Of a DNA stretch of 64,000 bases, positions 10,012-27,442 are shown in pieces. The notes below the pieces were generated by a model, which saw only the letters and a list, made by a program, of their open reading frames with translations, was not told the DNA's origin and did not search any database. How positions within the stretch are numbered: position 1 is the first letter of the stretch; the number at the start of each line of letters is the position of its first letter. The position numbers and the translations under genes were made by a program. The stretch comes from Taklimakanibacter albus (GTDB taxonomy: Bacteria > Pseudomonadota > Alphaproteobacteria > Rhizobiales > Aestuariivirgaceae), in assembly GCF_016595235.1 (NCBI RefSeq), contig NZ_JAENHL010000008.1, positions 62,001 through 126,000 of the forward strand, in the 5' to 3' direction.

Positions 10012-10692
10012 TCAGACCTTGAGACGGTCCATGATCTGCGCTTGCACATTGGCGAGATGGCGGCGCATCTCGCGCTCTGCGGTCTCAGGATCACGCGCTG
10101 CGATGGCGCTGGCGATGGCGCGGTGCTCGGCGTCACGCTCGGCCCGCCGTTTCGGGCACACGCTCGCCGGAAGGCCCATCCGGATGCGCGAATCAGTGCC
10201 GACCGCGCGCAGGAGCCGATAGAATTCGCCGGCGAGCCCGTTGCGGGCGCCATCGGCGACCGCCTTGTGGAACAGGAGATCGGCGTCGCCATACTCGTTG
10301 TCATCGGCATTCTCGACCGCCTTGACGATGCGCTCGACCTCGAGTGGGGAAGCGCGCAAGGCGGCGAGACGGGCCAGCGCCGGCTCGAAAATGGAGCGCA
10401 GCTCAATGACCTCGACCGGATTGGTGGCATGGGCTAGCTCGTGCCAGGGCGCCGCTTCGATCCAGCTTCCCGTCTTGGGCTCGATTTCGCCCGTCTCGCG
10501 CAGCACTTTCAGCGCCTTGCGCAGCTGGTGACGCTTGACGCCGAGCTCGGCGGCGAGATCACGCTCGGGCGGCACCGAGCCGGCGCTGCGGATGGCGCCG
10601 CGTACCGCTTCGACAAGGGCGCTGAGCTGAGCCGTCGTCTTATGCGGCAGGCGTGGTGCTGCGGCAGTTTGAATGTCCGTCATGTGCGCCAT
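10012..10692 (-). CDS. GntR-family regulator, FadR/FCD type, probable regulator of the B6 catabolic island
   Basis: 226 residues. The winged helix is seen in the N-terminal third (SVPPERDLAAELGVKRHQLRKALKVLRETGEIE), followed by an FCD domain with spaced metal ligands (DADLLFHKAV, EHRAIASAI, HLANVQ). The ATG at 10692 is used; an alternative ATG lies at 10683. The gene is divergent from the GMC oxidoreductase gene, and the 100 bp between them carry two pairs of 8-bp repeats that also recur upstream of the cupin gene. By position it should respond to a B6 vitamer or a pyridine-carboxylate intermediate; FCD domains commonly bind carboxylic acids. That ligand is inference. Confidence 0.88.
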   Translation of the reverse strand: MAHMTDIQTAAAPRLPHKTTAQLSALVEAVRGAIRSAGSVPPERDLAAELGVKRHQLRKALKVLRETGEIEPKTGSWIEAAPWHELAHATNPVEVIELRSIFEPALARLAALRASPLEVERIVKAVENADDNEYGDADLLFHKAVADGARNGLAGEFYRLLRAVGTDSRIRMGLPASVCPKRRAERDAEHRAIASAIAARDPETAEREMRRHLANVQAQIMDRLKV

Positions 10693-10702
10693 CTAGCAGA
10701 AG

Positions 10703-10782
10703 ACTCAACCAAACTCAACCGGCTCCTGCGTTGTGTTTTGGATAATCCCTGGCTTGACGGCTTGGTTGACTGATGGTTGACT
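10703..10782. promoter_or_regulatory. Paired 8-bp repeats in the GntR/GMC divergent promoter
   Basis: ACTCAACC occurs at 10703-10710 and 10713-10720 (10 bp apart). On the other strand sense, GGTTGACT occurs at 10764-10771 and 10775-10782 (11 bp apart). The two pairs face each other, sharing GGTTGA/TCAACC, and the spacing of one helical turn suggests dimers on one DNA face. A degenerate copy (GGCTTGAC) lies at 10751. Probably the operator of the GntR regulator. Confidence 0.65.
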
Positions 10783-10792
10783 TCCCGGAATC

Positions 10793-12370
10793 ATGGCCGA
10801 ATTCGACTATATCATCATCGGCGCGGGCTCCGCAGGCTGCGTGCTCGCCAACCGCCTTTCCGCCGACCCCGCTGTTTCGGTGCTCCTCATCGAGGCCGGC
10901 GGCTGGGACCGCGATCCTTGGATCCACATTCCGCTCGGCTGGGGCCGCATCCTGCAGCACCGCCTGCATGACTGGATGTATTTCTGCGAGCCGGAAGCCA
11001 ATGTGAACAACCGCAAGGTCGAATGCGCGCGCGGCAAGGTGATCGGCGGCTCCTCCTCGACCAATGCCATGGCCTATGTGCGCGGCAACCGCGCCGATTA
11101 CGACGCCTGGGCGGAGACAAGCGGGCTCTCCGGCTGGTCCTTCGAGAAGCTCCTGCCCTATTTCAAGCGTCAGGAACAATGGGAAGGCGGCGAGAACGCC
11201 TATCGCGGCGGACAAGGCCCGGTCAGCACGCAATTCTGCAAGTTCGCCGATCCCCTGGTCGACGCTTTCGGCGCGGCCGGCCAGAGCGCCGGCTTCGGCT
11301 GGACCGAGGATTACAATGGCGCGGAGCAGGAAGGCTTCGGCCGGCTGCAGATGACGATCGGCAAGGGCCGGCGTTCCTCCTCGGCCACCGCCTATCTGCG
11401 CCCGATCCTCACGCGGCCCAATCTCACCGTGATGACCGAGACGCTGGTCACGCGCCTCCTCATCGACAAGGAGCGCGCCACCGGTGTCGAGATCGAGGAC
11501 CGGAACGGCAGGCGTGAAATCAAGGCGCGGCGCGAGACTTTGCTTTCGGGCGGCGTGATCAATTCACCGCAACTTCTGATGCTGTCGGGCATCGGCGATC
11601 CGGATGAGCTCGGCAAACATGGCATCCGCACGCAAGTGGCGCTGCCAGCTGTCGGCCGCAATATGCAGGATCATGCCTCGGTGATCCTGCTCTATCGGCG
11701 CAAGGTGCCTGGCCCGTTCCACCACATGATGCGGTATGACCGGATCGGCCTCGCTTTGGCGCAGGCGCATCTCTTCGGCACCGGCTTCGCCTCAGACGTG
11801 CCGGGCGGCGTCACCGCCTTTCTCCACAGCGGGCGCACCAAAGTGCCTGACGTGCAGCTGCTGTTCACCGCCGCGACCTTGGGCGCCTGGCCCTATTTCG
11901 AACCATTCAAGAAGGCGTTCCCGGACGGTTTCGCGACGCGCATCGTGCTGGTGCAGCCGGAAAGCCGCGGCCGGATCAGCCTCGCCTCCGGCGACGCCAA
12001 GGCGGCGCCGCGCATCCACCAGAATTTCCTCGCCACCGACAGCGACTGGAAGGGGCTTAAAGCGGGCGTCGAGATGGCGCGGCAAGTGGCGGCCGAACCG
12101 CAGATGCAGGCCTTCATCGCGGCCGAACTCACCAAGAGCGATATCGAGGAGCATATTCGCGCCACCGCCATCACCGTCCATCATCCGATGGGGACCTGCG
12201 CGATGGGCGCCGTGGTCGACGGCGAGCTGCGCGTGAAAGGCGTCGAGGGCTTGCGCGTCATCGATGCGAGCGTGTTTCCGGGCGCGGTGTCCGGCAATAT
12301 CAACGCCGCCGTTCTGGCGGTCGCGGAACGCGGCGCGGATCTCGTCCGCGGTCTCAACCAACAAGCTTGA
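10793..12370 (+). CDS. GMC-family FAD oxidoreductase, candidate 4-pyridoxate dehydrogenase (or pyridoxine 4-oxidase)
   Basis: 525 residues. Seen: N-terminal Rossmann FAD site ([19 protein letters not shown]...VLLIEAGG), GMC signature 1 ([19 protein letters not shown]), signature 2 near [17 protein letters not shown], and a C-terminal active-site block ([10 protein letters not shown] ... [19 protein letters not shown]). GMC enzymes oxidise primary alcohols to aldehydes. In the B6 pathway I of Mesorhizobium loti two steps use such FAD enzymes: pyridoxine 4-oxidase and 4-pyridoxate dehydrogenase (EC 1.1.99.42). The gene is upstream of, and in the same orientation as, the dehydrogenase for the next aldehyde step, which favours the 4-pyridoxate role. 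No signal peptide is seen. Family certain; vitamer specificity inferred. Confidence 0.8.
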
Positions 12371-25500: not shown

Positions 25501-25509
25501 GAGACGACA

Positions 25510-26685
25510 ATGGCAGACAAACTGAACTGGCCGGTTTTCACCCTGACCTCAGGCCCGGTCGACGCTTACCCCGCGGTGCTGCGCGGCCTTGGGCGTACCG
25601 TCTCTTACGACTTCGATCCGGCCTTTCAACTCTTCTACGAAAACGTCGCGAAGAAAGCGAAGAAGGCGATGGGGCTCAAAAATGCCCCGGTCATCCTGCA
25701 TGGCGAGCCGGTGCTGGGCCTCGAAGCGGCCGCCGCCTCGCTCATCGCCGAGGATGACGTGGTGCTCAATCTCGCTTCCGGCGTCTATGGCAAAGGCTTC
25801 GGCTACTGGGCCAAACGTTATTGTGCCGATCTCCATGAGGTGGAGGTCCCTTACAATGAGGCCATCGATCCCGCCGATGTCGCCAAGGCGCTCAAGAAAC
25901 GTCCCGAGACGCGTATCGTCAGCCTCTGCCATCATGACACGCCTTCGGGCACCATCAATCCGGCGGAAGAGATCGGCGCCATCGTCGCCAAACATGGCGC
26001 CTATCTCATCACCGATGCGGTGTCGTCTTTCGGTGGGATGAAGATCGATGCCCTCTCATCCCATTCCGACATCTTCGTCACCGGTCCCAATAAATGCCTC
26101 GGCGGCGTGCCGGGCCTTACTCTATTGGGCGTGAGCGAGCGCGCCTGGAAGAAGATGAAGAAGAATCCCAAAGCACCACGTGCCTCGATGCTGTCGATCC
26201 TCGACTGGCAGGACGCGCATCGCCACGACCGGCCATTCCCCTTCACGCCGTCCGTCTCCGAGATCAACGGGCTCGATGCGGCGCTCGATGTCTATCTGGA
26301 GGAAGGGCCCGAGGCCGTATGGCAACGGCACGCGCTCACCGCCAAGGCCTGCCGGGCCGGCGTCAAAGCCATGGGGCTCGAGTTGTGGGCGGCGCGCGAG
26401 GAGATCGCCTCGCCCACCACCACGGCGGTGAAGACGCCCAAGGGCGTCGATGAAGAGAAATTGCGCGCCGCAGCGAGAAGCCTCTATGGCGTCACTTTCT
26501 CATCGGGCCGCGGCGAGACCTTGGGCAAGCTCACGCGCATCGGCCATATGGGCCCGACGGCGCATCCGATCTATTCGACGATCGCCATCTCGGCGCTGGG
26601 TGGCGCCCTCAATGCGCTCGGCCGCAAGACCAATACCGGCGCCGGCGTCGAAGCCGTGCTCGCCACCATCGGCAAGAAAATCTAG
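25510..26685 (+). CDS. ppaT: Pyridoxamine-pyruvate aminotransferase
   Basis: 391 residues. It transfers the amino group of pyridoxamine to pyruvate, giving pyridoxal and alanine (EC 2.6.1.30), without needing PLP as a cofactor since the substrate itself occupies that site. Seen: [60 protein letters not shown], and TGPNKCLGG with the Lys near residue 195, all class V aminotransferase features shared with M. loti Mlr6806. Related alanine-glyoxylate aminotransferases have a phosphate-binding set that this enzyme is known to relax. The gene starts ten bases after the lactonase and ten bases before the dehydrogenase, so all three are one transcript. Confidence 0.92.
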
Positions 26686-26695
26686 GGAGAGACAA

Positions 26696-27442
26696 ATGAG
26701 CAAGAAACATTCGGGTAAAACCGCCATCGTCACCGGCGCCGCCCAGGGCATCGGTGAAGCGATCGCGCGGCGCCTCGCGGATGACGGTGCCCGCGTCGTG
26801 GTAAGCGACATCAATGGAGCGGGAGCCGAAAAGGTCGCCAAGTCCCTGCCGAACGACGCCTTCGCCGTCACCTGCGATGTCTCAAATCCGGACCAGGTTG
26901 CCGCGCTGCATGCCGAGGTCGATAAGAAGGCCAAGGGCGTCGACATCCTGGTCAACAATGCGGCGATCGTGCCCTTCATCGCCTGGGACGATGTCGATCT
27001 CGCCCATTGGCGCAAGCTCATCGACGTCAATCTGACCGGCGTCTTCCTGATGTGCCGGGCGGCGTCCGATCAGATGCGCAAGCATGGCCGGCAGGGCCGG
27101 ATCATCAATATCGCCTCCAACACCTTCTTCGCCGGCACGCCCAACATGGCGGCCTATGTGGCGGCGAAAGGCGGCGTCATCGGCTTCACCCGGGCGCTCG
27201 CCACCGAACTCGGCAAACATGGCATCAATGTCAACGCCATCTCGCCGGGCCTCATGGAGTCGGACGGCGTGAAAGCGAGCCCGCACAACAACGCCTTCGA
27301 CTTCGTGGGCATGCTGCAGGCGCTGCCGGGCAAGGGCCAGCCCGTCGAGATCGCGGGCGTCGCCTCGTTCCTCGCTTCCGAGGACGCCAGATGGATCACC
27401 GGCCAGACCATCAATGTCGATGCCGGCATGGTGCGGTGGTAG
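26696..27442 (+). CDS. Pyridoxal 4-dehydrogenase (short-chain dehydrogenase/reductase)
   Basis: 248 residues from the ATG at 26696, with GGGAGAG upstream. It oxidises pyridoxal (as hemiacetal) to 4-pyridoxolactone with NAD (EC 1.1.1.107). Seen: NAD site [15 protein letters not shown], the NNAAIVPF segment, catalytic Ser in [23 protein letters not shown] with Y..AK giving Tyr and Lys, and C-terminal [13 protein letters not shown]. The IVPF.AWDDVDL..WRK.IDVNLTG stretch matches my memory of M. loti Mlr6807. With the aminotransferase and lactonase it makes 4-pyridoxate from pyridoxamine. A convergent gene ends one base later. Confidence 0.92.

Follow-up and report, generated by a model that had tools for sequence, protein, structure and literature searches.

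Positions 10012 to 27442 of a 64,000-nucleotide stretch of the Taklimakanibacter albus genome (contig NZ_JAENHL010000008.1, positions 62,001 to 126,000; this whole stretch is termed the window herein) hold a cluster of genes related to vitamin B6 degradation, in which bicupin, LVIVD, RidA, and glutathione transferase (GST) genes accompany those of known enzymes of the Mesorhizobium loti pathway. The region opens with a divergently oriented FadR/GntR regulator gene, followed by two colinear units that share one strand. The first unit (10793-19471, with intergenic gaps of -4 to 63 bp) runs from a GMC oxidoreductase through the bicupin, LVIVD, and RidA genes, a three-gene ABC importer, and the GST to FHMPC dehydrogenase. 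The second (19975-27442), separated from it by 506 bp, comprises a four-gene BMP-type ABC importer followed by 4-pyridoxolactonase, pyridoxamine-pyruvate transaminase (PPAT), and pyridoxal 4-dehydrogenase (PLDH). The original prediction for this DNA, made from its letters alone, is confirmed for genes, order, and orientation by open reading frames (ORFs), curated models, and Pfam domains. The G+C content of the region is 0.634, versus 0.627 for the window, and composition therefore shows no sign of recent foreign origin. The features are as follows, with HMPDC standing for 3-hydroxy-2-methylpyridine-4,5-dicarboxylate.

10012..10692, minus strand: FadR-type GntR regulator, divergent (Pfam FCD and GntR)
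10793..12370, plus strand: GMC oxidoreductase, probable 4-pyridoxate dehydrogenase (66% identity to an M. loti LU gene whose enzyme assignment we assume)
12434..13594, plus strand: bicupin, proposed HMPDC ring-cleaving Fe(II) dioxygenase (gentisate dioxygenase model; conserved Fe and catalytic residues)
13629..14828 (start may be further downstream), plus strand: LVIVD propeller, proposed metallohydrolase (fold and profile match to the 5hrm phosphotriesterase)
14839..15231, plus strand: RidA-family protein, proposed imine/enamine hydrolase (PF01042)
15233..17900, plus strand: NMT1/Ssu-type ABC importer, with ATPase, permease, and binding protein (SsuA start at 16887 or 16893)
17913..18545, plus strand: glutathione transferase family protein, possible isomerase (GST_N/GST_C)
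18545..19471, plus strand: FHMPC dehydrogenase (NF042925)
19975..24665, plus strand: BMP/PnrA-type ABC importer, with binding protein, ATPase, and two permeases (Pfam Bmp, ABC_tran)
24694..25500, plus strand: 4-pyridoxolactonase (NF047925)
25510..26685, plus strand: PPAT (NF046070)
26696..27442, plus strand: PLDH, SDR type (NF047923; start read from the ORF)

Upper-pathway enzymes are retained

Four upper-pathway enzymes scored above the cut-offs of curated NCBIfam equivalog models: 4-pyridoxolactonase (480.9 bits; NF047925 cut-off 325), PPAT (648.3 bits; NF046070 cut-off 600), PLDH (421.3 bits; NF047923 cut-off 325), and, by a narrow pass, FHMPC dehydrogenase (504.8 bits; NF042925 cut-off 500). 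All four had been named beforehand as enzymes of the M. loti B6 pathway, and the upper enzymes of the window belong to the 4-series of B6 degradation, as opposed to the 5-pyridoxate route (pathway II), which has a 5-pyridoxate oxygenase and a 5-pyridoxolactonase. The GMC protein is 66% identical to the gene found in the same position, directly before FHMPC dehydrogenase, in our reference locus L031, which is identical to Mesorhizobium loti LU locus L063 (100% matches). We take that M. loti gene to encode 4-pyridoxate dehydrogenase, and its homolog in the window is, by sequence, a probable 4-pyridoxate dehydrogenase as well.

Pyridoxine oxidase was rejected as an identity for the GMC protein, which is only 33-39% identical to the pyridoxine-oxidase gene of the B6 loci compared below and matches the pyridoxine 4-oxidase in the PDB with just 242 bits. 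A 76% identical homolog of pyridoxine oxidase lies elsewhere in the genome, about 1.36 Mb away (G000:C8:1444472-1445974; L170, L178), and pyridoxine may therefore also enter the pathway. The 19 kb around this homolog held no other gene of the B6 reference set beyond a generic 33% ABC ATPase match. By identity to M. loti, the homolog is closer to the pyridoxine oxidases of loci with the M. loti lower-pathway genes (classical loci) than to those of bicupin loci.

The classical lower-pathway enzymes are missing from the genome

In M. loti, the lower pathway involves HMPDC decarboxylase, MHPC oxygenase, and AAMS hydrolase (the classical trio). The M. loti LU queries used for these enzymes matched solved structures, the oxygenase 3alj/3gmb (844 bits), the hydrolase 3kxp (509 bits), and the decarboxylase 2z7b (Mlr6791; 460 bits). 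Neither the window nor the genome as a whole (7.17 Mb, 98.3% complete) yielded an ortholog of any of the three. The best matches were a weak paralog of MHPC oxygenase (30% identity, 80 bits) and, for AAMS hydrolase, a protein of 30% identity and 68 bits; seven aldolase-II proteins were present, two of which aligned with the decarboxylase, at 23-24% identity. The original prediction had found the three enzymes lacking in the window and had held that their occurrence elsewhere in the genome would count against a different lower pathway; the genome-wide search returned only these weak paralogs and did not refute it.

Two mutually exclusive gene sets recur beside FHMPC dehydrogenase

An alignment scan of a named genome collection with FHMPC dehydrogenase returned 381 relatives, and the best 80 loci were analyzed and typed at thresholds of 40% identity and 40% coverage. 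Of these best 80 of 381, 45 carried the classical oxygenase and decarboxylase, 34 carried bicupin, LVIVD, RidA, and GST, and one (L106), cut by a contig end immediately ahead of its GST, was undecided; none of the 80 (79 decided) held both sets. AAMS hydrolase was present in 44 of the 45 classical loci, the exception (L081) starting at a contig end, and MHPC oxygenase identity across classical loci was 66-100%. The M. loti-type GMC gene occurred in 33/34 bicupin loci, all but L135, a 7.9-kb contig. At 45% identity and 70% coverage, 34 of 40 bicupin loci, and 0 of 45 classical ones, have a FadR/GntR regulator of the window's type; the divergent gene at 10012-10692 accompanies the bicupin set. 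A search for perfect palindromes with arms of 5-7 bases, made in 38 intergenic regions beside the regulator, gave no support for co-regulation of the two units, as none was common to more than 9 of the 38.

Both ABC importers and the GMC gene are also present in classical loci, the Ssu-type importer in many of them. The bicupin, LVIVD, RidA, GST, and two importers had all been predicted as additions to the M. loti set; each is there, but the importers were ruled out as part of the alternative set because classical loci have both. Bicupin-type loci resemble those of B6 degradation pathway I (M. loti MAFF303099 / Pseudomonas MA-1) in upper enzymes, GMC, FHMPC dehydrogenase, importers, and locus architecture, and differ in carrying bicupin, LVIVD, RidA, and GST in place of decarboxylase, MHPC oxygenase, and AAMS hydrolase. 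L034 (classical) and L035 and L040 (bicupin type) have no Ssu-type importer; each has a DctM-type TRAP transporter gene inside the cluster, accompanied by DctP in L034 and by an NMT1-like binding protein in L040.

Across 297 genomes of the order, the FHMPC dehydrogenase model matched 39 at E <= 1e-60, of which 10 lay above its cut-off, one (G226) just under it at 467 bits, and the other 28 below 250 bits. Among the 11 genomes typed (the 10 plus G226), four had the classical trio and seven the bicupin, including that of the window; in G120 the bicupin was on another contig. Seven of ten order neighborhoods recur among the 80 loci, and the counts of the two sets are not additive. MHPC oxygenase at the classical level was found in none of 42 bicupin-type genomes (34 loci, L106, and seven G-numbered genomes), L106 being counted here on account of its twin, G120, whose bicupin is on a separate contig. 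Weaker relatives of the oxygenase (E <= 1e-20) were present in 13 of the 42, the best (G582) at 269 bits and 42% identity. The bicupin of the B6 clade was absent from all 46 classical genomes, four of which have a distant bicupin at 239-242 bits. On contig C31 of the bicupin-type genome of Skermanella stibiiresistens (G701, L130), a partial relative of MHPC oxygenase (49% along 190 residues, with one internal stop) is perhaps a remnant.

A search led by the bicupin gave 18 matches at E <= 1e-60 in 385 genomes of the class, including six orthologs at 627-815 bits, with the next match at 325 bits. Twelve genomes, 7/297 of the order and five from the rest of the class, have an ortholog; it shares a stretch with FHMPC dehydrogenase in 11 of them and lies on a separate contig of the same genome in the twelfth (G120). 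Outside the order, each of the five has FHMPC dehydrogenase and LVIVD as neighbors, and four have RidA and GST too; the fifth, L163, retains FHMPC dehydrogenase and LVIVD alone. Three distant bicupin loci (35-40%) had no B6-cassette genes nearby, save single matches of 31% and 35% in two of them, and the 183 records of a plasmid collection with a bicupin homolog were all under 60% identity, the best-ranked at 38%.

The bicupin-LVIVD-RidA-GST cassette is a recurrent variant and, judged by sequence matches, is widespread in Mesorhizobium and relatives; the fully sequenced Mesorhizobium ciceri biovar biserrulae WSM1271 (L122) is of this type. At the level of gene content, these comparisons show the replacement of the classical trio by bicupin, LVIVD, RidA, and GST, and many soil bacteria with B6 degradation genes appear to break the ring by an enzyme set other than that of M. 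loti. The early suggestion that the lower pathway is probably different is supported by the genome searches and by the exclusivity of the two sets (0/80, 0/42, and 0/46).

Gene trees suggest exchange of the cassette at one locus

Quick trees, weakly resolved and with long-branch warnings, were computed for genes shared by the two locus types. The bicupin or classical label changed once for pyridoxine oxidase (72 rows), GMC (78), and FHMPC dehydrogenase (85), with branch support of 99-100. Among the Ssu-type importer genes (45 rows each) the changes numbered 2, 2, and 5, and among those of the BMP importer (77-80 rows) 4, 5, 6, and 4; lactonase (76 rows) had 11 and PPAT (74 rows) 7. If only well supported branches are counted, the number required falls to 2-3 for the genes from BMP to PPAT and to 1 for the Ssu genes. 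The left half with the dehydrogenases would therefore travel as a block with the ring-opening set, the right half being common to both types. The trees suggest repeated cassette exchange at one locus beside a shared upper-pathway half, the exact number of events not being fixed at this resolution.

The bicupin has a complete iron center and an altered pocket

Among solved structures, the bicupin comes closest to gentisate and salicylate dioxygenases (profile scores of 197 to 132 bits; PDB 3bu7, 2d40, 2phd), with which it shares the bicupin fold, a three-His iron site, and the catalytic Arg and His. It differs from them in scoring below the family cut-off (209.1 bits against TIGR02272, cut-off 442.1), in three replaced substrate contacts, and in its separate clade: the 40 B6 bicupins fall on one side of a supported branch from 14 distant bicupins, in a quick tree with long-branch warnings. 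The iron ligands His121, His123, and His162 are present in 40/40 orthologs, as are Arg129 and His164, and Arg85 in 39/39 readable rows (one row is incomplete at its start). Arg85, Arg129, and His164 correspond to salicylate dioxygenase (SDO) residues Arg83, Arg127, and His162, whose roles are given in PMC11264262. In the known gentisate dioxygenases, according to the same paper, Gln108, Trp172, and Asp174 contact the substrate and are strictly conserved.

All three contacts are changed in the B6 bicupins: Gln108 to Arg110 (39/39), Trp172 to Asn174 (40/40), and Asp174 to Ser176 (40/40). None of the 14 distant bicupins has Arg110, Asn174, or Ser176; the first of these positions is Gln in 10 and Ser in 4, the second Trp in 13 and Phe in 1, and the third Asp in all 14. 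A complete oxygen-activating center with a changed pocket is thus as expected for a new substrate, and Arg110 would suit an extra (second) carboxylate. NicX, the 2,5-dihydroxypyridine dioxygenase, is likewise an Fe(II) dioxygenase opening a hydroxypyridine ring directly; its substrate differs from the one proposed here, and no homology is claimed. The B6 bicupin cassette is also present in Pseudaminobacter salicylatoxidans DSM 6986 (L100), whose species is the source of the well-studied SDO.

LVIVD, RidA, and GST as proposed accessory enzymes

The best of five structure models of LVIVD (pLDDT 73.8, 28 strands) is a predicted propeller. Its first structural match was the Sphingobium TCM1 haloalkylphosphorus hydrolase/phosphotriesterase (5hrm, also 5ioj; E 5.9e-16), with the next different structure at 7.5e-9, and a sequence-profile match to the phosphotriesterase gave E 7.7e-10. 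That enzyme reportedly has a binuclear metal center in a seven-bladed propeller, to go by the title of its structure paper; LVIVD fits a seven-bladed fold, with the blade number taken from that title. Eleven His residues are invariant in 40/40 orthologs, and we propose from the model that LVIVD is a metallohydrolase of the phosphotriesterase-like propeller type. It differs from the template in having about 20% identity in the structural match and in its B6 context, which contains no phosphotriester.

Arg104 and Glu118 of RidA, found in 39/39 orthologs, are read here as the counterparts of Arg105 and Glu120, which we take to be the catalytic residues of the family; the assignment of positions is our own. 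By curated score the GST was rejected as a maleylpyruvate/maleylacetoacetate isomerase, with 39.9 bits against TIGR01262 (maiA), below the cut-off of 171.

A proposed lower pathway and its alternatives

Two routes of vitamin B6 degradation are described in PMC3538738. No description of a bicupin-type third set was found among the matches listed from the open-access literature, most subscription journals lying outside that search. The island probably serves B6 catabolism, as far as sequence can tell, joining the known upper pathway to an alternative lower pathway that begins with bicupin-led opening of the HMPDC ring. Pyridoxamine and pyridoxal would be converted through 4-pyridoxolactone, 4-pyridoxate, and FHMPC to HMPDC by PPAT, PLDH, lactonase, the GMC dehydrogenase, and FHMPC dehydrogenase, and the cassette would then stand in for decarboxylase, MHPC oxygenase, and AAMS hydrolase. 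What the bicupin acts on, where it cuts, and what LVIVD, RidA, and GST do are inferred from structure and gene content.

The bicupin Fe(II) would bind HMPDC by its ortho 3-OH/4-COOH pair, as salicylate is bound in salicylate dioxygenase, and cleavage between C3 and C4 would yield HOOC-C(CH3)=N-CH=C(COOH)-CO-COOH, an N-linked azadiene of formula C8H7NO7 and neutral mass 229.022 that is an imine of pyruvate. RidA would hydrolyze the imine to pyruvate and release ammonia from the aminomethylene part, while the LVIVD propeller, likened to a binuclear metallohydrolase, could help to convert formyl-oxaloacetate to formate and oxaloacetate; GST may isomerize a double bond, as does the isomerase of the gentisate pathway. 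The atom balance closes for this route (HMPDC + O2 + 3 H2O). The classical route, with decarboxylation and NADH, gives CO2, acetate, ammonia, and succinic semialdehyde, and its balance also closes. MHPC, the decarboxylase product, has no carboxylate next to the OH and would therefore be unsuited to the bicupin, which would explain the joint loss of decarboxylase and oxygenase. With somewhat less assurance, the evidence on balance favors a third lower B6 pathway in full, in which the bicupin opens HMPDC at C3-C4 without decarboxylation, hydroxylation, or NADH, RidA and propeller hydrolysis follow, and a cassette widespread in Mesorhizobium and relatives has been repeatedly exchanged at one locus.

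Several observations weigh against this interpretation. Because the 80 loci were collected by FHMPC dehydrogenase, all of them necessarily contain it, and the 79 that were decided are related to one another and do not represent independent events. The bicupin has Ala108 at the position of SDO Gly106, and changing that glycine to alanine (G106A) reportedly impairs cleavage of salicylate. With a pLDDT of 48, the bicupin's AlphaFold model was too poor for use. Only the best of the five LVIVD models reached 73.8, the worst having 48.9. The outlying locus L163 is without RidA and GST within the 20 kb examined, so that these are not obligatory there, and its genome (G582) holds two MHPC-oxygenase relatives of 41-42%. 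No GMC dehydrogenase was seen in the stretches examined of L162, L163, and L164 (L165 is cut by a contig end), which puts the route to HMPDC there in doubt. The reduced cluster of L163 is followed by ORFs resembling, in translation, pyruvate carboxylase, hydantoinase-type genes, and an HpaI-type aldolase.

The missing GMC gene in L162-L164 would also fit a scheme in which the bicupin opens an earlier 3-OH/4-COOH intermediate, either 4-pyridoxate, likewise an ortho hydroxy-carboxylate, or FHMPC, and FHMPC dehydrogenase acts on the ring-opened aldehyde. The near-constant GMC gene of the bicupin loci, the equivalog score of the window's FHMPC dehydrogenase, narrow as it is, and the second carboxylate that Arg110 suits speak against this scheme, which we regard as unlikely. 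Quite unlikely, too, is that the bicupin is a decarboxylase or other non-oxygenase acting on HMPDC, with LVIVD or another protein opening the ring. Some cupins are decarboxylases, and four-His seven-bladed propellers, to which the invariant LVIVD histidines might be compared, form iron oxygenases (carotenoid cleavage enzymes); however, the bicupin keeps the Fe ligands and the counterparts of the dioxygenase Arg83, Arg127, and His162, and the best fold match of LVIVD is a hydrolase, not an oxygenase.

It is very improbable that the cassette merely detoxifies or modifies side products while a distant flavin monooxygenase encoded elsewhere opens the ring: the weak MHPC-oxygenase homologs of 13 bicupin genomes, and the 80-bit match in the window's genome, would provide candidates, but 29 of the 42 have no match at E <= 1e-20, the trio and the cassette were never found together, and the decarboxylase is lost along with the oxygenase. 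Recruitment of the operon to another substituted pyridine, B6 degradation having been given up, is hardly credible, since the upper enzymes having curated models are intact and above cut-off and a pyridoxine-oxidase homolog exists elsewhere in the genome, even though none adjoins the window cluster.

Neighboring genes

Between FHMPC dehydrogenase and the BMP importer, a 135-amino-acid ORF with a signal-peptide-like start lies antisense (19476-19883, minus strand) and is possibly a real gene for a small secreted protein. Beyond the island (27444-28993, minus strand), a DUF1638 protein adjoins a corrinoid-binding protein with B12-binding domains, which suggests a corrinoid methyltransferase system beside the B6 island, and a class V aminotransferase or cysteine-desulfurase-like gene follows nearby (29158-30432, plus strand).

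Significance

Cofactor catabolism is known from few examples. If correct, the bicupin-led route would add a common third lower pathway for B6 and give a role to an unassigned dioxygenase clade, to a dedicated metabolic RidA, and to an LVIVD propeller protein. It would also predict a different yield, namely pyruvate and oxaloacetate with no NADH spent on the ring. Annotation that seeks the M. loti enzymes would class bicupin-type strains as unable to complete B6 degradation, and the two interchangeable cassettes within one genus make it possible to test non-homologous pathway replacement cleanly by genetics.

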